From Clostridiales bacterium (lineage in GTDB: Bacteria; Bacillota; Clostridia; Lachnospirales; Lachnospiraceae): a DNA stretch of 37,565 nt. The notes beneath the pieces are model-generated. The model was not told where the DNA came from. It saw nothing but the letters and a program-made list of their open reading frames with translations, and did not search any database. Shown piece by piece: positions 1 to 33,648 of this stretch. Both the position numbers and the translations under genes were made by a program. The stretch covers positions 1 to 37,565 of the forward strand of contig JAJBUL010000035.1 of the NCBI GenBank assembly GCA_020860365.1. The letters run 5' to 3'. How positions within the stretch are numbered: the first letter of the stretch is position 1; each line of letters begins with the position of its first letter.

Positions 1-606
1 CCCCTGTACTGCCAGAATTCCCTGTCCGGCAGCGGGAATCATCTCTTCGGTCGTAAAATACCGGCTGACACGCTGTAAAAGCCCCAGCCGCTTCAGCCCT
101 GCCGCCGCCAGAATCGTCGCACAGTATTCGCCGCTGTCCAGCTTTTTCAATCGGGTCTGCACATTTCCGCGAATCGGCGCGAATGTGGCCTGCGGGTATA
201 GCTGCGCAAACTGCAGCATCCTGCGTCTGGAGGAACAGCCGACCGGCTTTGAAAAATCCAGTTCATCCGCTCCTTCCGGGAGAATCAATGCGTCGCGCAC
301 ATCCTCCCGCGCGGAATACGCGATCAGCGGAAGCGCCTCAGGCAGCTCCATCGGGACATCCTTGAGGCTATGGACAGACAGATCCGAGCGGCCATCCAGC
401 AAAGCCGCATCCAGTTCCTTTACAAAAAGTCCTTTTCCTCCGATTTTTTCCAGCGGCTGATTTAATACCTTATCGCCAGTGGTCTTCATCGTAAGGATCT
501 CCACGGACAGCTCCGGATGCGCCTGCTGTATATACTGCCGCACCATCTCCGACTGAATCACAGCCAGCTGGCTTTCCCGGCTGCCAATCACAATTTTTCT
601 GGTCAT
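1..606 (-). CDS. hemC: Porphobilinogen deaminase (hydroxymethylbilane synthase), C-terminus cut by window edge
   Basis: Minus-strand translation from ATG at 606: MTRKIVIGSRESQLAVIQSEMV...LTMKTTGDKVLNQPLEKIGGKGLFVKELDAALLDGRSDLSVHSLKDVP, typical HemC motifs; open to position 1. Confidence 0.95.
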   Translation of the reverse strand, partial: MTRKIVIGSRESQLAVIQSEMVRQYIQQAHPELSVEILTMKTTGDKVLNQPLEKIGGKGLFVKELDAALLDGRSDLSVHSLKDVPMELPEALPLIAYSAREDVRDALILPEGADELDFSKPVGCSSRRRMLQFAQLYPQATFAPIRGNVQTRLKKLDSGEYCATILAAAGLKRLGLLQRVSRYFTTEEMIPAAGQGILAVQG

Positions 607-1853
607 TCTGTCTTTATATTCCTTTCCACGTCATACATTTTCTCAAGCCCTTCAATGCATTCCCGAAACGCCGCCTCACTTACGCAGTCCCGCAGCCCGA
701 ACAGCAGCTTATTCATTGTGCGCTCTGCCGCCCCTTCAATCTCCTCATTCAGTTTTTCTTTTTCCTGCTCCTCCAGGGGAAGACTGCGCACCGTTTTTGT
801 CAGGCGTTTTTCCAGATCAACTGCCGTCTGCGTCTTGATCGACTGAATTTTCGGAATCATGTCCACGCACTCGTACCAGTCAAAAAATTCTTCCATCTGC
901 TTCGCAAAACAGGCTTCCGCATCGGCAATCGCCCGTTGTTGTTCCTCGCTCACTGCTCCTTCGCGGAAACAGTCAATGTCATAGAGACGCACACCGTCCA
1001 GTTCGGCTACGCCGGGTTCAATGTCCCGCGGCACCGCCAGGTCGATCAAAACAACCGGCTTTTTCCGATATTCCGCAACCAGCTCTCTGGTCAGCGTATA
1101 ATTCGGGCTGACAGTCGCACTCAGTACGTAGTCACATTCGCCAAACAGTTCCATCCGCCGCCCGTAATCAATCCGTGAGCAGTTCGGCGGAATCTCCACC
1201 ACGCCGCTGCGGTACTGGCGAACCGTCACCGTGACAAATGCTCCCTGTTTTTGCAGCTGTGTCGCGGCCAGCTTTCCCATCACGCCATTGCCAATCACCA
1301 TGCATGTTTTCCCGTCAAAAATGTACCCCTCTTCTTTCAGTGTTCGAATCGCGGTATGAACCGCAGACTGGTCGGTAGAAGATAACTCCCCGCTGGTCTT
1401 CACCTTCTTCGCAGATGTAACCGCCATCCGGAAAAGCGTCTCCAGCACATGATCCGCCGCGTAATGTTCTCTGGCAAACGCCAGCGCATCCTTCACCTGT
1501 GTCACGATCTGATCGTCCCCCAGAATCCGAGACTCCAGACCCGCCGCAAGGCGGAACAGATGATGCACCGCCTCCCGCTCCTGCCGGAAGCGGAAAAATG
1601 ACCGATAGTCCAGCGTTTCCGGAATGTCTCTGATTTCACAGAGCAGCCCGTACAAATCACTCTCAAAATCCTCTCCGGTACTTAAGTAAAGCTCCATCCG
1701 ATTACAGGTTGAAATCATAACACAGCCGTTAACGCCTTTTACCTGTTTCAGACGTTCCAGGGCCTCTGCCATACTTTTTTTCGTAAAAGAAAAAACAGTC
1801 CGTATATCAATCGGGGCGTTTTCATGGTCAATCCCCGCCATCCGTATTCCCAC
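603..1853 (-). CDS. hemA: Glutamyl-tRNA reductase
   Basis: MISTCNRMELY catalytic Cys motif, LESRILGDDQIVTQVKDA, VIGNGVMGKLAA nucleotide-binding region. Confidence 0.93.
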   Translation of the reverse strand: MGIRMAGIDHENAPIDIRTVFSFTKKSMAEALERLKQVKGVNGCVMISTCNRMELYLSTGEDFESDLYGLLCEIRDIPETLDYRSFFRFRQEREAVHHLFRLAAGLESRILGDDQIVTQVKDALAFAREHYAADHVLETLFRMAVTSAKKVKTSGELSSTDQSAVHTAIRTLKEEGYIFDGKTCMVIGNGVMGKLAATQLQKQGAFVTVTVRQYRSGVVEIPPNCSRIDYGRRMELFGECDYVLSATVSPNYTLTRELVAEYRKKPVVLIDLAVPRDIEPGVAELDGVRLYDIDCFREGAVSEEQQRAIADAEACFAKQMEEFFDWYECVDMIPKIQSIKTQTAVDLEKRLTKTVRSLPLEEQEKEKLNEEIEGAAERTMNKLLFGLRDCVSEAAFRECIEGLEKMYDVERNIKTE

Positions 1854-1866
1854 AGTATTCCTCCCG

Positions 1867-2715
1867 CTATCCAGTCAAGCAACTCACATCGTTCCTCACG
1901 ATATATGCAAATCTTAACACTGGCATCTCTGCCGCATCCATCGCGTCCCGCACATGATCCAGAAACATCTCCCGAACCCCGGCATATTCGCCGAGTCCCT
2001 TCAAAACACACCTTACCTCAAACCCGGCGCTCTCAAAACGGCTTTTCCATGAATCCGCGTCAGAACCGGCCAGATCATTTTCCGCATGATCGCCAGCAAC
2101 AATCATAAACGGCGCCAGAACGACCTCTCTGAACTGTTGCTCCTGTACGCGCCGCATCAGCGAATCCAGTGCCGGATAGGCTTCCACCGTCCCCATAAAA
2201 ATATTGGAATAACCCATGTCCTTAAACTGGTAATCCAGCGCCGCGTAAATAGAGTTCGCGTAGTGCTCCGTCCCGTGCCCCATCAAGACCAGTGCTTCGT
2301 CTTCTGCAATTCGCAGTTCCTGCGCAATCACACGCACAATGCGCACATTGTCCTCCTGTGTGGTCAAAAGCGGTTTCCCCACCGAAATACGGGAAAACAG
2401 ATGCCCGCATTTTCTTACACTCTCCAGCATCTGATCATTCTCAATTCCATTAATTACATGCGTCGGCTGAACAACGACATCCGCCATCCCATCTGCCGCC
2501 ATCTGTATCAAAGCTTCCTCTACATCCGGGATATCGATCCCGTCACGCATTTTAATTTTCCTGCGGATCATTCCACTCGTCCAGGCTCGGTATACCCTCC
2601 AGGTGGGATACTCCTGTCTCATGCTAGCCTCAATCTGGTCAATGGTCTTTTTTCTGGTCTCCTCATAGCTTGTCCCAAAGCTGACGACCAGAATTCCTTT
2701 CCCGCTCTTACTCAT
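1867..2715 (-). CDS. cbiK: Anaerobic sirohydrochlorin cobaltochelatase CbiK family
   Basis: ILVVSFGTSYEETRKKTID N-terminus, LVLMGHGTEHYAN and APFMIVAGDHAENDLAG metal-site motifs. Confidence 0.92.
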   Translation of the reverse strand: MSKSGKGILVVSFGTSYEETRKKTIDQIEASMRQEYPTWRVYRAWTSGMIRRKIKMRDGIDIPDVEEALIQMAADGMADVVVQPTHVINGIENDQMLESVRKCGHLFSRISVGKPLLTTQEDNVRIVRVIAQELRIAEDEALVLMGHGTEHYANSIYAALDYQFKDMGYSNIFMGTVEAYPALDSLMRRVQEQQFREVVLAPFMIVAGDHAENDLAGSDADSWKSRFESAGFEVRCVLKGLGEYAGVREMFLDHVRDAMDAAEMPVLRFAYIVRNDVSCLTG

Positions 2716-2893: not shown

Positions 2894-4273
2894 TTAAATC
2901 CGTTTAAACGAAAAATCCTTCTCTTCGCGTAACCGGAGCATTTCCTTTCCCTTCGTCATATAATCTTCCGCAAATGTGATGGCTCCCGTTATTCCAGACC
3001 AGGACTTCCCGTATATTGCCTGACGGTAAACCGGCCAAGAGGAGGGCAGCAGCACTGCCTGGCTCTGGATAGCCGCATCAGCTTCGAGCGAGCTTCCCAA
3101 AACAATATCCGCGGACGAAGATCGAAGAACGCGCGCGATCTCCTGTGCGTCGCTTGTATACACCGTGTTTTTTGATAAAAGACCCGTGCTTTCCGTCGAA
3201 TTTGCTGATACCGCGGACAACGGCAGACCTTCATAAGTGTCTGCGTTACGCGGAACATCCGTTATCACTGCCGCTGTGATTCTGGCCTGAAAATAGTTTG
3301 AGAGGAACCCCGCGTATTGCTTTACCTGACGTTCCTCTCCGACCAGTGCGAAACGATGGTTGGCATGCTCGGCGTAAAAGGCTTCCCGGATACATGCAAA
3401 ACAGGCTTCAAAGCTTTCCCGTTCCCGCTTTAAAAAAGGATGAATTGTTTCTTCTGGAAGGGAAAGAACCCCGGCGACCTGACGCACAAACGTCTCAACC
3501 TCCTCCATCCCGGTTGGCACGGTATCATATGTCTGGTAAGGTATCTGATATAACTCCTCCAGTTTTCTGGCCGCCTTTACTCCCCAGTGGGAAAACACCA
3601 GTGTCAGATCTGCCTTTGACGCTGCGGCAAGCTCTTTTACGCCCTCCGGCGAGAGAAAAAACGTATTTGCCTGAATGCCTGCTCCAGTGAGAATTCTGCG
3701 CAGCTCCAGCAATTCACCTCGAAAATACAAATCCTGCTGCGGCAGGATGCCCAAGATATTTACCAGAGGTTTCCTCTTATCTCCCGAAAAAGCCGGCTTT
3801 GGAAGAATCTCCTGGATATCCGGCAGTTTCGAAAACAGATCCGCCATCACAGTCTCATATCCATAATGGCTGTCGCCGTGAAATCCTGCCAGCAATGAAT
3901 GGATCACTGGCTCTCCCTGCTCCTGGGCCTCCCGTGTCATAGCTTCTATGTCATCACCTACCATTGCTGATTCGCAGCTATTCAAAACAACATAAAGCTC
4001 CCCGTTGAATACTTTCAGAGAATTCTTAATCTGTTCCCGCAGCCGGGAGGCTCCGCCAAAAATCACATGGCGCTCCTGAACGGCACTTCCGGGAATCGCA
4101 CAGCCTGCAATCTGCGCGTTTCCAAATCCTCCCGCCCTGGAAGCAAGGGCATCCTGAATCGCACAGCCCGCATTGGAATGTACGATTGGAACGACGCCGC
4201 GGATCGCGGTCAATGTACGCACAGCGCCATGCAGGGCACATCCGTAACGAGGTCTTGCGATTGCCTCAGCCAT
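2894..4273 (-). CDS. Nitrogenase component 1-type oxidoreductase, K/B-like subunit
   Basis: VPIVHSNAGCAIQ, QIAGCAIPGS, HVIFGGASRLREQI, LNSCESAMVGDDIEAM motifs of the NifDK/BchNB/CfbD superfamily; starts 2 nt after the upstream subunit's stop. Confidence 0.88.
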   Translation of the reverse strand: MAEAIARPRYGCALHGAVRTLTAIRGVVPIVHSNAGCAIQDALASRAGGFGNAQIAGCAIPGSAVQERHVIFGGASRLREQIKNSLKVFNGELYVVLNSCESAMVGDDIEAMTREAQEQGEPVIHSLLAGFHGDSHYGYETVMADLFSKLPDIQEILPKPAFSGDKRKPLVNILGILPQQDLYFRGELLELRRILTGAGIQANTFFLSPEGVKELAAASKADLTLVFSHWGVKAARKLEELYQIPYQTYDTVPTGMEEVETFVRQVAGVLSLPEETIHPFLKRERESFEACFACIREAFYAEHANHRFALVGEERQVKQYAGFLSNYFQARITAAVITDVPRNADTYEGLPLSAVSANSTESTGLLSKNTVYTSDAQEIARVLRSSSADIVLGSSLEADAAIQSQAVLLPSSWPVYRQAIYGKSWSGITGAITFAEDYMTKGKEMLRLREEKDFSFKRI

Positions 4274-4274
4274 G

Positions 4275-5705
4275 TTATTTTACCTTCTGTTTTACATACC
4301 AATTCGCGCTCTTGCGCAGCCATGATTTCTTGTATAATTCCGGCGATTCCAGCGACCAGGGCACAGCATCACGGATTCGGTCGATCAACTGGCGAATCCC
4401 TTCATATCCAAGGATAGCGGTATGCGCCATTGATACCGGGATACAGCCTGGTACCTCTCCGGCAAAGGCTACTTCTTCCCCGTAAGAAAGATAGTAATCT
4501 GCTTTCCGCTTCGCAATCACGTTTGCCTTTTCAAACGGCTGCCCATTTGCTACCACGACAGATGTCCCCGGATTCAGAGACGAGAGTTTTTCCAGATAGC
4601 TTCGGCTCTCCATATCCACTGATAAAACGGACAAGCCAACCACCTCTCCTCCAAAATGCTGTATCGTCTCCAGCAAACCAGGGAGCAAAGAGAGCGGCGC
4701 ATCCAGAAAAAATCGCTTCCCGGCAAGCGACACCCCTCCTAATTCACGTTCCAGCATACTTTCCTGTTTTTCCACATACTCCTCAGCTGCAGAAGAACGG
4801 CCATACAATTCCGCGATGTGAAGGATGAATGACCGCACACTTTTCAGTCCAACCGGCGCATTCAAACATAATCCGGGAACCTGAAAACACTCTTCCAATC
4901 CCTCTGAAAGATATTGTCCTTCCTCCGGATTTAGCGCCACGGACGCCAGCGCATTTCCTGCCTGCCGAATCGTCTCTACGGACGCATATCGCGGCAAAAG
5001 GCGAAAAGGAATGCCAAGCTCCCGAAAAATCGAAATAATAGCCGACAGGCTTTCCGGATTTTCTGAAAAGGAAAGCAGATTGACCGGCATTAAATTCGCA
5101 CTGGCACCAGCTCCTGATGCTTTATCTCCATCCACTTTCACCCTGGCCCGTCCGATCACGTATTTCAGCAACACATGGCTGACAATATCATATCCGGTGA
5201 GGGGCGTTTTCGTCTTGAATCCATCTGTATAAACAAAAATCAATTCTGAATCTATTTCCTCTGACATTTCCAGAATCAAAGACTGGACATCGTCATTATT
5301 AATGGCGATTACCGGCGTCCCTACAATGAATATCACCTTTGCGCGAGTCTCCCTGGAAGCGCGAAGACATGCGCTTCGAAGCTTTTCATCGCCTCCCAGA
5401 ATCGTATCGCGCTCGTCCAGATTGGTAGAGTACCAGCGAAAGGGCTGCTCCTCGTGATATCCCAGGCCGGAAGTCGCACAGCCTACAGCTCCATGTACGA
5501 CAACCGCGGCATCCTTTATCGTGCTTAAGATGCGAAGGGCATACAAAATTTCATCCGGTGAAACCTGTGTGAGCGTACGCACCCGCTGGAGAATCTGGGC
5601 GCCACTTGTCTCATCACGCAATCCTTCCAGGGCTCCATTATAGTGACTCAGTGTCTGCAGACGTCTTTCCCGCGTCAATACCTTTCTTTCCTCCATCAGG
5701 CTCAT
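4275..5705 (-). CDS. Nitrogenase component 1-type oxidoreductase, D/N-like subunit
   Basis: VVVHGAVGCATSGLGYHEEQPFRWYSTNLDERDTILGGDEKL, APVGLKSVRSFILHIAELYG, AHTAILGYEGIRQLIDRI. Start at 5705 (MSLMEERK), because the longer track ORF overlaps the upstream nifH-like gene. Confidence 0.87.
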   Translation of the reverse strand: MSLMEERKVLTRERRLQTLSHYNGALEGLRDETSGAQILQRVRTLTQVSPDEILYALRILSTIKDAAVVVHGAVGCATSGLGYHEEQPFRWYSTNLDERDTILGGDEKLRSACLRASRETRAKVIFIVGTPVIAINNDDVQSLILEMSEEIDSELIFVYTDGFKTKTPLTGYDIVSHVLLKYVIGRARVKVDGDKASGAGASANLMPVNLLSFSENPESLSAIISIFRELGIPFRLLPRYASVETIRQAGNALASVALNPEEGQYLSEGLEECFQVPGLCLNAPVGLKSVRSFILHIAELYGRSSAAEEYVEKQESMLERELGGVSLAGKRFFLDAPLSLLPGLLETIQHFGGEVVGLSVLSVDMESRSYLEKLSSLNPGTSVVVANGQPFEKANVIAKRKADYYLSYGEEVAFAGEVPGCIPVSMAHTAILGYEGIRQLIDRIRDAVPWSLESPELYKKSWLRKSANWYVKQKVK

Positions 5706-5706
5706 A

Positions 5707-6582
5707 TCAGATTCCCTCCTGCGCGCCGACAAATCCGCTTTCGAGACTGTATATCCTGTCTCCCCATTCCCTTGCCCAATCTCGAAGTTCCGCGCTGCCA
5801 AGCGGTTTTGGGATCACCAGATCCTCACTTTCAGCGATATCTCGTGCCAGCTTGCGATAGAGCTTTGCGTGTTCAGAATCCGGGTTCGCCTCAATTACCG
5901 TTTTTCCATACAGTTCACTCTGGGAAACCACCAGGGAGCGCGGTATATATCCAACTGTTTTCGTATCCGTTCGTTTTGTAAAATCATCCAGAATCGCCTG
6001 AGAGTACCCTGTGGAGAGTCCATTTCCGATGACTCCTCCAAGCTTTGCGCCGCCGCTGGGCGCATATTTGCTGATCGCCTTGAACAGATTGTTCGCCGCA
6101 TAGATCGCCATAAAATCTGAAGAGCTGACCACATAAGCGCGATCCGTAATCCCGTCGCGGATTGGCACCGCAAACCCGCCGCAGACCACATCGCCGAGTA
6201 CGTCATAAAGGACATAGTCTGGCTTAAACTCCTCAAACAGGCGAAGCTCCTGCAGAAGATTCACCGCCGCGTTAATTCCCCGGCCTGCGCAGCCTACTCC
6301 CGGAACCGGACCGCCCGACTCAATGCAGAGCACTCCTTTGAAGCCGCGGATGGAAATATCATCCAGATGTACCCGGTTTCCCTCCCGCAGGCTGTCAAGC
6401 ACAGTCGGAAGATACGTGTTGCCCCGCAGCGTATTTGTTGAATCACTCTTTGGGTCGCAGCCAATCTGGATTACCTTATAACCCGCCTCCGCCAGAGCTG
6501 CGCTGATATTGGAGGTCGTAGTCGATTTTCCAATACCGCCTTTTCCATAAATCGCAATATGTTTCCCGATTCTCTCAGCCAT
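5707..6582 (-). CDS. NifH/BchL/CfbC-like ATP-dependent Fe-S reductase
   Basis: P-loop YGKGGIGKSTTTSN; GPVPGVGCAGRGI and DVLGDVVCGGFAVPIR carry both [4Fe-4S] ligand cysteines. Confidence 0.95.
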   Translation of the reverse strand: MAERIGKHIAIYGKGGIGKSTTTSNISAALAEAGYKVIQIGCDPKSDSTNTLRGNTYLPTVLDSLREGNRVHLDDISIRGFKGVLCIESGGPVPGVGCAGRGINAAVNLLQELRLFEEFKPDYVLYDVLGDVVCGGFAVPIRDGITDRAYVVSSSDFMAIYAANNLFKAISKYAPSGGAKLGGVIGNGLSTGYSQAILDDFTKRTDTKTVGYIPRSLVVSQSELYGKTVIEANPDSEHAKLYRKLARDIAESEDLVIPKPLGSAELRDWAREWGDRIYSLESGFVGAQEGI

Positions 6583-6631: not shown

Positions 6632-7846
6632 TCAGCCATTCGCCACGATCCGCCCTTTTCTGTCAATCGTGACATGATTTTTCAGGCGGAACAGGTCGTG
6701 CATTACGGTGTCAGATTCTGCCGTAGCATCACGCAATTGCGTCCAGGTGACCCCGTAATTGCGGAAAATATCTGCTGTCCGCTCCTGGACATCCCAATGC
6801 CAGTCCGCCTCCGGTGTACGATGCCCCTCCAGCGCGGAACCCACATTCACATACCATTGGCTTGGCACCGCTATTACTCCAATGCTCGCCAGATAGCTGA
6901 TGCCGGAAAGAAGCGATTCCTTCGTCTCCAGACCTGCCACAAAAGTAGAACGGACATGATATTTCCCGAATACGTCCAGTTCTTCCTTCAGCGCGTTCAG
7001 CCAGTTTTCCCTGCCGCCGCACTGGCTGGATTTGCCCGGGCAATAATATTCAAAAAGCTTTTCATTCCAGACTTCCATATTCGTAGCAATTGTAGAAAAG
7101 CCCGCATCCCTGTATTTTTCAAACACAGAAAAGTCAAGCGGCGCGCCTACGCAGGCGGTTCCGTTGAAGTGTTCCAATCCGGTATAATCCGCGATTGCCT
7201 CCGCCACATCGATATAATACTCTACCTCACGCCGTTCCGGGACAAAACCACCGCTCACCGTCAGCTTGTCAAACCCTTCCTCAAACGCTGTCGCCACGGT
7301 CTCTCCGATCTGTTTTGGCGTCTTCCAGGAAATCCCCTGGCACTCCGCATAGATTGACTTTGTTGCATTAATGTTGCAAAACAGACAATCGAGTCCTTTG
7401 TCCTTCAGGGCGCATTCATTGCTATATGCGATAAAAATTACGCCATAGCCATTGTCCTGGGCAATGGTGCGCATATCCGTGCCATCACTGGTCTTTTTCG
7501 CATAATAGCCAGATCGCGATTTAAAATTAACGTTTTCAAATACCGGTTCCCGCCTGCCTATACGATAAATATTATACTGGCCATCCTCATAAACCAGGGA
7601 ATAATGGCTGTCACGAAACCAGCGGATACGCACCTGATAACCGCCTTCTGGAGTCAGAAAGCAGGCGGGAAACTCAATTCCCCTGTGCGCTTCCTTATCC
7701 TGAGAAAACATTGCGTTGACGCCCTCCACATATCGATTTCCAAGATCCAGATGAGAAAAAATATAGGGATCAAAATTCAGCCCCTCCACCAGGATCTCAT
7801 TTTTCAGTCTGATTTCATTGTATAGTGTCTGATAATCTGCGCTCAT
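6632..7846 (-). CDS. Radical SAM protein associated with nitrogenase-like genes
   Basis: YSNECALKDKGLDCLFCNIN (CX8CX2C) and KLTVSGGFVPERREVEYY-type radical SAM fold motifs; RBS GGGAGG before ATG at 7846. Confidence 0.8.
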   Translation of the reverse strand: MSADYQTLYNEIRLKNEILVEGLNFDPYIFSHLDLGNRYVEGVNAMFSQDKEAHRGIEFPACFLTPEGGYQVRIRWFRDSHYSLVYEDGQYNIYRIGRREPVFENVNFKSRSGYYAKKTSDGTDMRTIAQDNGYGVIFIAYSNECALKDKGLDCLFCNINATKSIYAECQGISWKTPKQIGETVATAFEEGFDKLTVSGGFVPERREVEYYIDVAEAIADYTGLEHFNGTACVGAPLDFSVFEKYRDAGFSTIATNMEVWNEKLFEYYCPGKSSQCGGRENWLNALKEELDVFGKYHVRSTFVAGLETKESLLSGISYLASIGVIAVPSQWYVNVGSALEGHRTPEADWHWDVQERTADIFRNYGVTWTQLRDATAESDTVMHDLFRLKNHVTIDRKGRIVANG

Positions 7847-7943
7847 CTTTTCCTCCCACAATTATATAAATATTCGTATCTATTCGAAACAGCAGGCCAC
7901 AGACCGCCTTTTCTTTCGATGCTTTTCTGAACTGTTGCAAATA

Positions 7944-8729
7944 TTACTTCTCAGCTATCCCATATTTCTTCAGTACTGTATTTCCGATCAGCCGCATCAC
8001 CCGGTCGGACAGGTAGCCCAAAAGTCCCAGGGTAATGATTCCGACAAAGATCCAGTCGATGCGGAAATACAGGCGGGATGTATAAATCATATAGCCCAGT
8101 CCGGATTTCGCCGCGAGCATTTCTGCCGTCACAATTGATGTGAAAGCACTGCCAAGACCCAGGCGCGCCCCGGTAAAAATATAAGGAACTACCGATGGAA
8201 GCACAATAGAGTATAAAATCTGCCATTCACTCGCTCCCAGCGTCCGTGCCGCCTGCAGCTTGGTTTCATCAATGCTCTGGACGCCGGAGAGCGTGTTTAC
8301 AAGCACGATAAACCATGTACTGTAGGCGATCAGAATAATCTTTGATATCTCTCCCACGCCAAACCACATCAGGAACAGGGTCAGAAACGCGATTGCCGGA
8401 ACAAAGCGGAAAAAATTCACGAAAGGCTCCACGATCTCCCGCAGGATATGCACCCTCCCAATGAGAATGCCAAGCGGAACCGCAAACAGAAATCCAAGGA
8501 TCCATCCGACAAACACCCGCCAGGAACTAATACATACATATTCAAACAGCTTCCCATTCGCGATGACTTCCCATCCTCCGGTAATCGTCTGCCAGGGATT
8601 TGGAAAAAAATTCTCAATATAGAAAGAAGACGCAAATGTCCAAATCAGCAGAAAAAGAATCCAGGTCACGATACCAGACTGAATCAGGCGGCGCAGCAGA
8701 CGATACAGGAATTGCCCAATCCGTTTCAT
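7944..8729 (-). CDS. ABC transporter permease, SsuC/TauC type
   Basis: Hydrophobic TM segments; EAA-type loop LQAARTLGASEWQILYSIVLPSVVPYIFTGARLGLGSAF. Confidence 0.92.
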   Translation of the reverse strand: MKRIGQFLYRLLRRLIQSGIVTWILFLLIWTFASSFYIENFFPNPWQTITGGWEVIANGKLFEYVCISSWRVFVGWILGFLFAVPLGILIGRVHILREIVEPFVNFFRFVPAIAFLTLFLMWFGVGEISKIILIAYSTWFIVLVNTLSGVQSIDETKLQAARTLGASEWQILYSIVLPSVVPYIFTGARLGLGSAFTSIVTAEMLAAKSGLGYMIYTSRLYFRIDWIFVGIITLGLLGYLSDRVMRLIGNTVLKKYGIAEK

Positions 8730-9577
8730 GCGCTTTCCCCCCTTACCTGTTCAAAATCAAAATACTGCTGCAGCTGTTCTCTCAGATCCAAAAAGGCCGG
8801 ATCCCGCTCATTACGGGGATAGGGTAACTCCACATCATACGTTTTGCAGATCGATGCATGCGGAGACATGGACATTACACTGATCTTTTCTCCAAGCAGG
8901 ACCGCCTCATTAATGTCGTGTGTAACGAAAATAATAGTTTTGCCGGTTTTCTGCCAGATATGGATCAGTTCATTCTGTAGCATCCGTCTGGTCTGTGCGT
9001 CTAAAGCGCCAAATGGCTCATCCATAATCAGAATCCGCGGATTGCAGGCAAGCGCGCGGGCGATCTGAAGCCGCTGCTTCATCCCGCCGGAAAGTTCCGA
9101 AGGATATTTATCTGCGTGATCTTTCAAATCCACAAGTTCCAGATATTCTTCCACTATTCTCTTTCTCTCATCCTTCTTTACTTTCTGAACCCTCAGACCA
9201 TATTCTACATTTTCATACGCAGTTTTCCAGGGAAAGAGCGCGGCGTCCGCGTTCTGAAAAATGACGCCCCGCTCCTTTCCGGCTTTCCTTACAGGATGGC
9301 CTTCAATGCTGATCTCACCGGCAGAGGGCTTTAAAAGCCCCGCCAGTATGTTGAGAAGAGTAGACTTGCCACAGCCGCTCTTTCCGATCAGGATCAGAAA
9401 TTCCCCTTCCGCAATCTCCATGTCTACATCATGCAGGACTTCGTCCTCACCGTCTTTTTTAAAAGCACCGTAGGTTTTCGAAATGTGACGAACCGAAATT
9501 AGTGACGGAAAATGCACTTTTACAGTCCTTGCTTTTTCAAATTTAACAATGGTATCGGCTGCTGCCTGCTCAGTCAT
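8726..9577 (-). CDS. ABC transporter ATP-binding protein, SsuB/TauB type
   Basis: Walker A GKSGCGKSTLL, signature LSGGMKQRLQIARAL, Walker B ILIMDEPFGALDA; start MTEQAAAD with RBS; overlaps the permease start by 4 nt. Confidence 0.94.
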   Translation of the reverse strand: MTEQAAADTIVKFEKARTVKVHFPSLISVRHISKTYGAFKKDGEDEVLHDVDMEIAEGEFLILIGKSGCGKSTLLNILAGLLKPSAGEISIEGHPVRKAGKERGVIFQNADAALFPWKTAYENVEYGLRVQKVKKDERKRIVEEYLELVDLKDHADKYPSELSGGMKQRLQIARALACNPRILIMDEPFGALDAQTRRMLQNELIHIWQKTGKTIIFVTHDINEAVLLGEKISVMSMSPHASICKTYDVELPYPRNERDPAFLDLREQLQQYFDFEQVRGESA

Positions 9578-9599
9578 AAAATCAGCTCCTTTGTCTGGC

Positions 9600-10598
9600 T
9601 TAGAAATCCACCTTTTCCGGCAAAACCGCAGTAACTGCATCCGTAAAGATATAATTGTTCAGATCATATTCGTTCTCAATCAGACCATTTTCAATCGACC
9701 ATTCTGCGATGCTGACGATGTGATCTACATCACTCTGCGTGAATTCAATGTCATAATCGTAGGTACCAAGTCCATTGATCGCATCCTCTTTTGCGATACC
9801 CAGGCTGTCTGTCAGATAATCTGCCGACAAATCCGTGTCACTGTTGATAATTTCCGTTGCTTCATTCAATGCCAGAATCAGCCGTTCCACATACTCAACA
9901 TTTTCTTCTGCAAGTGTACTGTCTACGACCAGATAAGCGATATTTATATTGTCAATATCGTCCAAATCCGCGATGGTATGCGCGCCTTCCACAGCGAGCG
10001 CGTCGTCTGCATACTGCTTGGAAAGCCATACCGCATCCACATTATAGGAAGCAAAGGCTGCAATCATTTCCGCATCGGAAGTAAAGTACAAAAGATTCAC
10101 GTCCTCCTCCGTCAGGCCATAGGTGGTCAGCGTCTTCGCAACCTCCAACTCATTGACTGTACCGCTCGCCACAGCGATGTTCTTTCCGGCTAGATCCTCT
10201 CCCGACTGGATTTCCTCAATATTCGCATACAGACTCTTAGAATCACCATGCCCGCTCAGAATGCTCGTAACCAGCCGCAGATTCGCTGCCTCCGAGGCGC
10301 GGGTCGCGACCGCGTAATCATTGGCCTCGCCGACCTGCACTTCGTTCAGAATCACTCCATTGACCGTGTCAATACCATACGAATAGGTAACCAGTTCTGC
10401 GTCAATGTTGTACTTTTCAAATATTCCTGCCTCTTCCGCGACACGTATCTGGGCAGAAAAGACGCTGCTGTCAACGCCGATTGATACAGAAAAAGGCTCA
10501 TATTCCGTCTCAGACTCACTCTCTTCCGCGAAAGTAGTCGTTCCAAAGGATACAGTAAGGGCAGTTGCAAATAAAATAGCAAATAATTTTTTCTTCAT
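9600..10598 (-). CDS. ABC transporter substrate-binding protein (SsuA/NMT1/ThiY-like)
   Basis: Signal peptide MKKKLFAILFATALTVSFGTTTFAEES; periplasmic-binding fold sequence EAGIFEKYNIDAELVTYSYG...EVQVGEANDYAVATRASEA. Confidence 0.88.
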   Translation of the reverse strand: MKKKLFAILFATALTVSFGTTTFAEESESETEYEPFSVSIGVDSSVFSAQIRVAEEAGIFEKYNIDAELVTYSYGIDTVNGVILNEVQVGEANDYAVATRASEAANLRLVTSILSGHGDSKSLYANIEEIQSGEDLAGKNIAVASGTVNELEVAKTLTTYGLTEEDVNLLYFTSDAEMIAAFASYNVDAVWLSKQYADDALAVEGAHTIADLDDIDNINIAYLVVDSTLAEENVEYVERLILALNEATEIINSDTDLSADYLTDSLGIAKEDAINGLGTYDYDIEFTQSDVDHIVSIAEWSIENGLIENEYDLNNYIFTDAVTAVLPEKVDF

Positions 10599-10635: not shown

Positions 10636-11829
10636 TTATTGATCTGAATTTGCCAGAAGCCGTCTGATTTCTTCCACTTTATCCAGACGTTCCCATGGCA
10701 AATCAATATCTGTTCTTCCAAAGTGCCCGTACGCTGCGGTCTGTTTGTAAATCGGGCGCGCCAGGTCAAGATCATGAATAATAGCAGCAGGGCGAAAATC
10801 AAAAACGGTTCGAATAATATCCAGGATTTTTTCATCAGCCATCTTACCGGTACCGAACGTGTTGACCGCGATGGAAACCGGATTCGCCACACCGATTGCG
10901 TATCCCAATTCTATCTCCAGCTGATCTGTGGCTCCGGCAGCCACCAGATTTTTTGCTGCTCTGCGTGCAGCATATGCTCCTGAACGGTCTACCTTAGTGG
11001 GATCTTTTCCGGAAAATGCGCCGCCGCCGTGATGTCCGGCTCCGCCGTAGGTATCTACTATGATCTTACGCCCGGTAACGCCAGCGTCTCCCTGCGGACC
11101 TCCAATCACAAATCGGCCGGTCGGATTGACATAGTAAATCGTATCCGCATCCAACAATTCTACCGGAATCACAGGAGCGATAACTTCACGCAGCACATCC
11201 TCCCGAATCTGCTCAAGAGAAACATCCGCAGCATGCTGGGTAGACAATACAATCGTGTGAATGCGCTTTACTTTTCCGGCATCGTCATACTCCACTGTCA
11301 CCTGCGATTTCCCATCCGGCCGCAAATATGGAAGCGTTCCATCCTTACGCACCTTTGCCAGCTGGCGGGTAAGACGATGCGCGAATGAAAGCGATGGCGG
11401 CAGATATTCCGGCGTCTCATTTGTCGCGTAGCCAAAAAGAATCCCCTGATCTCCCGCACCGATATCAAATTCACTGGAGTTCTCTCCTGCCCGGTATTCC
11501 AGCGCCCGGTTAACTCCCTGGGCAATATCCGGCGATTGCTCATCAATCGAGGTTAACACTGCGATGGAATCCGCGTTATATCCATCCACATTGTTGACGT
11601 AGCCAATTTCCCGTATCGTGTCTCTCGCAACCTTCGCGATATCCACATACGCTTTCGTAGAAATTTCTCCAACAATCAACGCCAATCCGGTCGCCACAGT
11701 TGTTTCAGCGGCTACTCTTGCTTTTGGATCCAGTTCCAGCAGGGCATCCAGAATCGCATCCGATATCTGATCCGCGATTTTATCCGGATGTCCTTCTGTC
11801 ACTGATTCCGAAGTAAACAATCTTCCCAT
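10636..11829 (-). CDS. metK: S-adenosylmethionine synthetase
   Basis: [63 protein letters not shown]; start at 11829 rather than the longer track ORF. Confidence 0.97.
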
Positions 11830-11891
11830 TTTTTCTCCTTTCAAAACCGTAAACCAGATCATAAACCGGAGCAGTAAATAATTAATTGGAT

Positions 11892-11940
11892 AAAAAAAAG
11901 ATTTTAAATCCGCGCTATTTCTCTTCCGCGATTTAAAATC
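11892..11940 (-). terminator. Terminator/attenuator hairpin between the YezD-like ORF and metK
   Basis: Arms gattttaaat(c)cgcg 11900-11914 and cgcgatttaaaatc 11927-11940, followed on the minus strand by T8 (11892-11899). Confidence 0.8.
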
Positions 11941-11990
11941 TCCAGTCTTTCTGGTCAACTTTAAATTTATAGTTTCTGTAATATAATCTT

Positions 11991-31792: not shown

Positions 31793-32803
31793 TTAGAATT
31801 TTCCAGCCGTTGCTGCTTCCTCGATGGAAACTGCTACCGCTACCGTCATGCCGACCATCGGGTTGTTGCCCGCGCCGATCAGACCCATCATCTCTACGTG
31901 CGCCGGTACGGATGAAGATCCCGCGAACTGCGCGTCAGAGTGCATACGGCCAAGGGTATCGGTGAAGCCATAGGAAGCCGGGCCTGCCGCCATGTTGTCC
32001 GGATGAAGGGTACGGCCTGTGCCGCCGCCGGATGCCACGGAGAAGTACTTCTTGCCCGCTTCGATGCGCTCTTTCTTGTAAGTACCAGCAACCGGATGCT
32101 GGAAACGGGTCGGGTTCGTAGAGTTACCGGTGATGGAAACGTCTACGTTCTCTTTCCACATGATCGCTACGCCTTCCGGAACGCTGTTCGCGCCGTAGCA
32201 ATTTACCTTGCCGCGAAGGCCGTCGGAGTAGGATTTGCGGAATACTTCCTCTACCTTATTGGTATACGGATCGTATTTTGTCTCTACATATGTAAAGCCG
32301 TTGATTCTGGAAATGATCTGTGCAGCATCCTTGCCAAGGCCGTTCAGGATGACACGAAGCGGTTTCTGACGAACCTTGTTCGCTTTCTCAGCGATGCCGA
32401 TGGCACCTTCTGCTGCCGCGAAGGACTCATGGCCAGCAAGGAATGCGAAGCACTCAGTATCCTCCTCCAGGAGCATCTTGCCAAGGTTGCCATGGCCTAA
32501 GCCTACCTTACGGGTATCTGCTACAGAGCCCGGGATGCAGAAAGACTGCAGGCCCTCGCCGATGGCTGCCGCCGCATCTGCTGCCTTGCGGCAATTCTTC
32601 TTGGTTGCAATTGCTGCGCCTACGGTGTATGCCCAGCAGGCATTCTCAAAGCAGATCGGCTGAATGCCTTTGATCTGGTTGTAAACATCCAGTCCGGCGT
32701 CTTTTGTGATTTTCTCTGCTTCCTCAATGGAAGCGATTCCATAACTGTTCAGTACGGAATTGATCTTGTCAATTCTTCTCTCATATGATTCAAATAAAGC
32801 CAT
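31793..32803 (-). CDS. GGGtGRT protein
   Basis: Contains SVASGGGTGRTLHPDNMAAGP, the family-defining motif. Confidence 0.92.
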   Translation of the reverse strand: MALFESYERRIDKINSVLNSYGIASIEEAEKITKDAGLDVYNQIKGIQPICFENACWAYTVGAAIATKKNCRKAADAAAAIGEGLQSFCIPGSVADTRKVGLGHGNLGKMLLEEDTECFAFLAGHESFAAAEGAIGIAEKANKVRQKPLRVILNGLGKDAAQIISRINGFTYVETKYDPYTNKVEEVFRKSYSDGLRGKVNCYGANSVPEGVAIMWKENVDVSITGNSTNPTRFQHPVAGTYKKERIEAGKKYFSVASGGGTGRTLHPDNMAAGPASYGFTDTLGRMHSDAQFAGSSSVPAHVEMMGLIGAGNNPMVGMTVAVAVSIEEAATAGKF

Positions 32804-32822: not shown

Positions 32823-33515
32823 TCACTCTTTGCGCGGGTCAATAATCTTCACTGCATCAGCTACACGGCCATACTGACCTTTCGCTTTTTCCCATGCGGT
32901 GTTCGGATCGTCGCCTTTTTTGATGAAATCTGTCATCTTGCCAAGGCTGACAAACTGATAACCAATGATCTCATCATCTGCGTCAAGAGCGATACCGGTT
33001 ACATAGCCTTCTGCCATCTCCAGATAGCGCGGGCCTTTCTTCAGTGTGCCATACATGGTGCCGACCTGAGAACGAAGTCCCTTTCCAAGATCCTCCAGAC
33101 CAGCGCCTACCGCCAGACCGTCCTCTGAGAACGCAGACTGCGATCTGCCGTATACGATCTGTAAAAACAGCTCTCTCATAGCTGTATTAATTGCATCACA
33201 GACAAGGTCCGTGTTCAGTGCCTCCAGAACCGTAAGTCCCGGAAGGATTTCTGCTGCCATGGCCGCAGAGTGCGTCATTCCAGAACAGCCGATTGTCTCA
33301 ACCAGAGCTTCCTGGATCACGCCATCCTTAATATTCAGGCTCAGCTTGCAGGCACCCTGCTGCGGTGCGCACCAGCCTACGCCATGTGTAAAGCCAGAGA
33401 TGTCTTTGATCTCTTTTGCCTGTACCCATTTTGCTTCTTCCGGGATCGGAGCGGCGCCATGATGGACTCCCTGCGCCACTGGGCACATTTCTTCTACTTC
33501 TCGTGAATAAATCAT
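32823..33515 (-). CDS. NifU/IscU-like iron-sulfur cluster scaffold protein
   Basis: GWCAPQQGACKLSLNIKDGVIQEALVETIGCSGMTHSAAMAAEILPG; start MIYSREVEEMCPVA. Confidence 0.85.
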   Translation of the reverse strand: MIYSREVEEMCPVAQGVHHGAAPIPEEAKWVQAKEIKDISGFTHGVGWCAPQQGACKLSLNIKDGVIQEALVETIGCSGMTHSAAMAAEILPGLTVLEALNTDLVCDAINTAMRELFLQIVYGRSQSAFSEDGLAVGAGLEDLGKGLRSQVGTMYGTLKKGPRYLEMAEGYVTGIALDADDEIIGYQFVSLGKMTDFIKKGDDPNTAWEKAKGQYGRVADAVKIIDPRKE

Positions 33516-33648
33516 TGTCTTACTCCTTTCGGTAAAAATAAAAATATGAAACGATAAAATCGTTTGCACGCAGCCATCACACTCTGCAAGCGCAAAACTG
33601 TTATAGCTGCTTTATTCTCATAAAGCGACAGATGCGGCAGATGATTGT

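Follow-up and report, generated by a model that had tools for sequence, protein, structure and literature searches.

Gene content of the locus and identity of the subunits

The window analysed here is a 37,565-nucleotide stretch (contig JAJBUL010000035.1) of a Lachnospiraceae genome, itself 4.28 Mb in size and 95% complete. Read in the order of minus-strand transcription, the locus runs metK, a substrate-binding protein of the SsuA family, an ABC ATPase and permease, a radical SAM enzyme, a NifH-type reductase, a D-type and a K-type catalytic subunit, and then cbiK, hemA and hemC (Table 1). The two catalytic genes lie where the initial annotation had placed them, on the minus strand and with Pfam Oxidored_nitro matches; an in-frame TTG at 5801 lies upstream of the D-like ATG, and a start there would overlap isrH. 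In the IsrH-like reductase, C98 and C134 are invariant in 23 of 23 sequences. The radical SAM enzyme carries a CX8CX2C motif (C150, C159 and C162), matches TIGR04043 (E=4e-23) as well as the variant radical SAM family NF045502, and gave no NifB match. Searches at Rfam gathering thresholds turned up neither a SAM riboswitch nor a T-box in the window and in 17 related loci, and sulfur control of the operon by either element was dropped on this ground. Elsewhere in the window, positions 31793-32803 encode a GGGtGRT protein (PF14057), adjoined by an open reading frame (32823-33569) without a Pfam match.

Table 1. Genes and key residues of the nitrogenase-like locus (positions in the window)
Feature	Position	Strand	Details
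hemC, hemA, cbiK (tetrapyrrole genes)	4-2715	-	directly downstream of isrK
K-like gene (IsrK-like, NifK/MarK-type catalytic subunit)	2894..4273	-	459 aa; Pfam PF00148 Oxidored_nitro E=1e-57
IsrK C100 (LNSC), cluster site 3 (NifK Cys153, MarK Cys121)	3974..3976	-	Cys 31/31; codon checked
IsrK C58 (QIAGC), no conserved cysteine	4100..4102	-	Cys in 1/31 homologs
IsrK C37 (SNAGC), cluster site 2 (NifK Cys95, MarK Cys56)	4163..4165	-	Cys 31/31; codon checked
IsrK C12 (RYGC), cluster site 1 (NifK Cys70, MarK Cys32)	4238..4240	-	Cys 31/31; codon TGT checked
D-like gene (IsrD-like, NifD/MarD-type catalytic subunit)	4275..5705	-	476 aa from ATG; PF00148 E=5e-53
IsrD N259, FeMo-co/L-cluster Cys column (NifD Cys275, MarD Cys270)	4929..4931	-	N 23, D 3, S 2, A/I/V 1 each, n=31
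IsrD P131 (GTPV), site-3 column (Cys in MAR and nitrogenase)	5313..5315	-	Pro 31/31
IsrD C76 (HGAVGC), sole conserved D Cys, cluster site 2 (NifD Cys88, MarD Cys91)	5478..5480	-	Cys 31/31; codon checked
IsrD D51, site-1 column (Cys in MAR and nitrogenase)	5553..5555	-	Asp 31/31
IsrH-like NifH-type reductase	5707..6582	-	291 aa; PF00142 E=4e-94
IsrB-like radical SAM enzyme	6632..7861	-	directly upstream of isrH; NF045502 variant_rSAM 439 bits (cut-off 125)
SsuC/TauC-type ABC permease	7944..8729	-	
SsuB/TauB-type ABC ATPase	8726..9640	-	
SsuA-family substrate-binding protein	9600..10598	-	TIGR01728 E=1.5e-25, under its curated cut-off
Extra metK (S-adenosylmethionine synthetase)	10636..11958	-	TIGR01034 570 bits

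Against the subunits of methylthio-alkane reductase (MAR), window K scores far better with the MarK profile (E=1e-87) than with MarD (1e-17), and window D with MarD (9fmg_A/9d9u_A; 2e-60) than with MarK (5e-16); the best PDB match of window K is MarK 9d9u_C (E=3e-48 as a single sequence, 1e-87 as a profile). A tree built by a quick method, in which the K/D split is weakly supported and BchB has a long branch, places window K among the K-type and window D among the D-type sequences. Sequences that read Asp, Cys and Pro at the three D cluster sites (D/C/P) fall into a single clade (SH-aLRT 99), whose sister is the MAR-type clade (97). From the profile scores and tree placement together we assign the subunit with three cluster cysteines to the K type; by sequence comparison the two subunits are paralogs of D type (IsrD, sister to MarD) and K type (IsrK). 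AF2 models of D (mean pLDDT 79) and K (mean pLDDT 73, with low confidence in residues 48-89) find their best Foldseek matches in MAR chains 9fmg_A (TM 0.77/0.78) and 9d9u_C (TM 0.79/0.83), respectively, support that extends to the predicted fold and not to cluster geometry.

Cluster cysteines of the catalytic subunits

Among homologs of both subunits, 25 in a first set and 31 (29 distinct) in a second, the only invariant cysteines are C12, C37 and C100 of K and C76 of D. This preserves the count of three plus one in the initial annotation, though by way of a different residue: the K motifs SNAGC and LNSC were correctly named as conserved, but the third, QIAGC, holds a cysteine (C58) that 30 of the 31 homologs replace by Tyr, Phe, Glu, Ser or Val (Cys in 2 of 25 once the 92%-identical L006 is counted), and its place belongs to C12, which had been missed. 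Similarly, HGAVGC does contain the single conserved cysteine of D, but alignment with NifDK, NifEN, BchNB and MAR reference sequences puts it at cluster site 2 and not at the first, as had been proposed. C76 is the sole conserved D cysteine, and two D segments originally read as cysteine-free proved to be so, with Pro at site 3 (GTPV) and Asn in the segment aligned with FeMo-co Cys275. All four cysteines are kept even in homologs down to 36-38% identity to the window, and the four D sites are all cysteine (C/C/C/C) in 22 of 22 MAR-type D homologs belonging to the same taxonomic order, which together place the 3+1 pattern beyond chance.

At sites 1, 2, 3 and 275 the alignment reads C/C/C/S for window K and D/C/P/N for window D; among the references, MarD, NifD and NifE all read C/C/C/C, NifN S/C/A/G, BchN C/C/C/Q and BchB P/D/C/Y. 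The published MAR ligands (MarK 32/56/121, MarD 66/91/158, Cys270 and His429; PMC12552129) match the aligned columns by motif. The NifD Cys275 column is never Cys in the 31 Isr-type D sequences, as against 25 of 25 MAR-type ones. At the MarD Arg428/His429 columns window D has Tyr and Gly, and Trp195 is also lost; the Arg-His pair is present in 21 of 25 MAR-type D sequences and unconserved in Isr-type D.

Judged from these columns, the predicted ligand set is 3+1 and all cysteine, with its three-cysteine side on K, and we infer that C12, C37 and C100 of IsrK and C76 of IsrD would bind a single [4Fe-4S] cluster in each DK pair. A single four-ligand cluster in place of an 8Fe P-cluster had been proposed at the outset, and both the cysteine pattern and the distribution of NifB described below support it well. 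The set would correspond to the K-side half of a P-cluster. A similar division is seen in NifEN, where NifE Cys37/62/124 surround the O-cluster with NifN Cys44 beside it; there, however, the three cysteines lie on the D-type NifE, which also keeps Cys250 for the L-cluster, whereas in the window they lie on the K-type subunit (PMC13031127). The putative arrangement would thus mirror that of NifEN and DPOR, making it a good test of cluster position against electron flow.

The initial annotation had likened the enzyme to DPOR/COR, a comparison that proved imprecise and lacks support in that form. DPOR binds its cluster through three cysteines from BchN, the NifD-type subunit, and one aspartate from BchB. 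The window enzyme resembles BchNB in ligand count and in having no large active-site cluster, but its four predicted ligands are all cysteine, three of them are on the NifK-type subunit, and site 2 is Cys in both subunits. Nor is D51 likely to be a ligand, given that a deep Spirochaetota relative (L079), which has Pro at the P131 column, has Gly at this one and that Arg is reported in IsrD (PMC11423573); a DPOR-like role for this aspartate is disfavoured for the same reasons.

Relationship to isethionate reductase

A closer counterpart is found in Rhodobacter capsulatus, in which nflBHDK with an SsuABC importer gives anaerobic use of isethionate, the genes having been renamed isrBHDK (Morimoto et al. 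2024, PMC11423573). R. capsulatus needs the gene set and importer for this, and in R. sphaeroides they suffice for it; the IsrDK of R. capsulatus, once purified, behaves as a redox-active Fe-S protein, and Isr has been reported in Bacillota and Spirochaetota, intestinal bacteria included (PMC11423573). The window shares the B-H-D-K order with an SsuABC-type importer, and a radical SAM gene directly upstream of H that is not of NifB type. IsrK has Cys12, Cys37 and Cys99, matched by C12, C37 and C100 of window K; IsrD has one cysteine (Cys74), matched at the NifD Cys88 site by C76, and replaces Cys62 by Arg and Cys154 by Pro or Ser, with no Cys275 or His442 (PMC11423573). Window D likewise has Pro at the Cys154 site and no Cys275 equivalent, and its clade lies close to MarD in group IV in a tree drawn without R. 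capsulatus IsrD. The 3+1 cysteine pattern is therefore one already described for IsrDK in 2024 (PMC11423573), a precedent that the initial annotation had not recognised.

All other features compared agree, but the two appear to differ at the Cys62 site, where Arg is reported for IsrD and the window clade has Asp (Gly in L079); an invariant Arg43 sits 8 residues upstream of D51. For the radical SAM enzyme the link is indirect. R. capsulatus IsrB is reported as BciD-like and not of NifB type (PMC11423573); rcc02237, now IsrB, and Synechocystis sll0785 are both listed as BciD paralogs (Harada et al. 2013, PMC3613366); and the window enzyme weakly matches a Synechocystis MSMEG_0568-family (TIGR04043-type) protein, so that it is tied to IsrB/BciD through TIGR04043 and that paralog list.

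On cysteine pattern, gene order, radical SAM class and clade, with R. capsulatus IsrBHDK compared by its published description, we consider it probable that the window encodes a member of the known IsrBHDK kind, a group IV nitrogenase-like system with a sulfonate importer and one cluster. Since both gene order and cysteines match IsrBHDK, the enzyme is best seen as neither MAR nor DPOR/COR. Most likely it would remove sulfite from small sulfonates, isethionate for example. In the scheme we propose, the SsuABC-type importer would bring in a small sulfonate, which the vacated cofactor pocket would hold; IsrH, spending ATP, would feed electrons to the single [4Fe-4S] cluster between D and K; and the C-S bond would be cleaved reductively, with the radical SAM partner IsrB required and sulfite released for assimilation.

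Carriers, radical SAM modules and competing readings

The 24 related loci come mostly from Lachnospiraceae (Pseudobutyrivibrio and Anaerocolumna among them), with Treponema and another spirochaete; the D search has its closest match, at 92% identity, in a Lachnospiraceae metagenome-assembled genome. Beyond a 30-bit match to the NifB C-terminal region, no NifB was found in the window genome, and NifB is absent from 22 of the 28 genomes carrying the D/C/P pattern, which argues against an [Fe8S9C] cluster; of the six carriers with NifB, five also hold a D homolog that scores as MAR-type sequences do. Within one order, genomes with D/C/P have an NF045502 radical SAM gene in 8 of 8 cases and NifB in 2 of 8, and those with C/C/C/C in 1 of 22 and 21 of 22, counts that represent associations and not probabilities, since genomes from the same genus cannot be treated as independent. 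Isr-type enzymes are thus found in Lachnospiraceae and Treponema of gut and rumen type that for the most part lack NifB. This suggests that cleavage of the C-S bond probably proceeds here without a large cluster of the nitrogenase kind, which the sister family MAR does use.

In 27 of 28 carriers there are between one and six NF045502 copies, whereas D/C/P subunits number exactly one; 14 of the 28 have at least two NF045502 copies, a few of them contig-edge fragments. Several related loci (L012, L015, L027 and L029 among others) place multiple NF045502 genes beside separate SsuA-family binding proteins around a single HDK set, and paralogs inside one locus may be as low as 43-47% identical. Genes for MATE efflux and PPOX-like proteins also recur in such loci.

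Genes of SAM metabolism travel with these modules. Among 24 related loci, 18 have a metK inside the cluster, with at least three arrangements represented. It is an additional copy, since all 10 of the genomes with a linked metK that were checked hold another elsewhere. In the window genome (G000) that other metK, at 8880-10121 of contig C120, is split across two frames and may be frameshifted or reflect an assembly error. Members of the MTA/SAH nucleosidase family, enzymes that also remove 5'-deoxyadenosine (PMC10986504), are linked in 14 of 24 loci (an NCBIfam match confirms the family in L025, and the L012 match stays below cut-off); the window itself yielded none. IsrBHDK as described differs in both respects: window-type loci have the linked extra metK, often with the nucleosidase, and their carriers often hold several radical SAM/importer modules per HDK. 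The Isr paper does not mention metK (PMC11423573). What is new here is the recurring linkage to extra SAM-making and SAM-recycling genes; also of interest are the multiplicity of radical SAM modules around one HDK and the carriers that lack NifB.

The linked metK and nucleosidase, together with multiple radical SAM genes per single D, point to SAM consumption by IsrB in the course of turnover without proving it. Tentatively, IsrHDK, with its single K-side [4Fe-4S] cluster, might be a shared reductase and the NF045502 enzymes the partners that determine the substrate, each paired with an importer of its own and spending SAM at every turnover; this would explain both the travelling metK and MTA/SAH/5'-deoxyadenosine nucleosidase and the single HDK per several radical SAM/importer modules. 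Whether IsrB is an activator or a catalyst becomes testable through this linkage.

The same modules bear on the substrate. An Isr-like enzyme with the same fold and single cluster might act on taurine, another sulfonate or some other organosulfur compound, with importer and radical SAM enzyme setting specificity; the surplus of diverged radical SAM genes over D subunits in half of the carriers, several of them adjoining their own SsuA-family binding proteins, would fit such a variety. We nonetheless hold this to be somewhat unlikely, as the core HDK genes group in a single conserved clade and the importer belongs to the SsuA family, as for isethionate in R. capsulatus.

Isethionate-type activity also fits better than a tetrapyrrole reductase of DPOR/COR or CfbD kind with a 3Cys+1Asp cluster, a reading that we regard as highly improbable. 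It would account for hemC, hemA and cbiK on the same strand and for the aspartate conserved in all 31 homologs at a cluster site, but none of the related loci has these neighbours beside HDK, and a tetrapyrrole substrate deduced from them was rejected; moreover, D51 falls at site 1, whereas the aspartate of DPOR occupies site 2, a cysteine in the window enzyme; Gly replaces D51 in L079, and the importer is sulfonate-type. Least probable of all, and contradicted by the sequence to the point of near exclusion, is a true MAR with a P-cluster and an [Fe8S9C] cluster: MarDK are the closest solved structures for both subunits, but two of the six P-cluster cysteines and the equivalents of MarD Cys270, Arg428 and His429 are missing, the genome has no NifB/MarB, and the clade is separate. 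Doubt about a MAR assignment, voiced already in the initial annotation, is borne out, as is the lack of a FeMo-co or L-cluster cysteine; independent support comes from the missing NifB in this genome and in most carriers. MarBHDK is nevertheless close kin, a sister clade with the same fold, C-S bond cleavage and a sulfur-salvage context, but MAR has all six P-cluster cysteines, Cys270 and His429 for [Fe8S9C], and a NifB-type MarB (PMC12552129), and the ligands beyond the four shared cysteines, like NifB, are lacking here.

Plasmid searches returned no Isr from Pseudomonadota. The window genome (G000) holds two further nitrogenase-like loci. On contig C270 (L031: 5463-12340) a NifH-type gene is accompanied by FecBCD/BtuCDF-type importer genes, which suggests a metal chelate as substrate; one subunit there reads C/C/C and its partner has Thr at cluster site 2, a possible 3+0 pattern, and no NifB is present. 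On contig C12 (L032: 5944-8174) a NifH-type gene adjoins a diverged 524-aa Oxidored_nitro protein whose cluster cysteines fail to align. Two nitrogenase-like operons reading C/C/C/C lie on a plasmid of Candidatus Chlorohelix (L034; 6956-11988 and 19375-27942), and both include a NifB-type gene; an O-acetylhomoserine sulfhydrylase gene is close to the first, and the second has an SsuA-type importer. The second, an HDK set with a radical SAM gene, an importer and a K subunit 30% identical, was weighed as a candidate Isr and set aside; its D subunit reads C/C/C/C and its radical SAM enzyme matches NifB, which places it with the MAR/Nfa kind.
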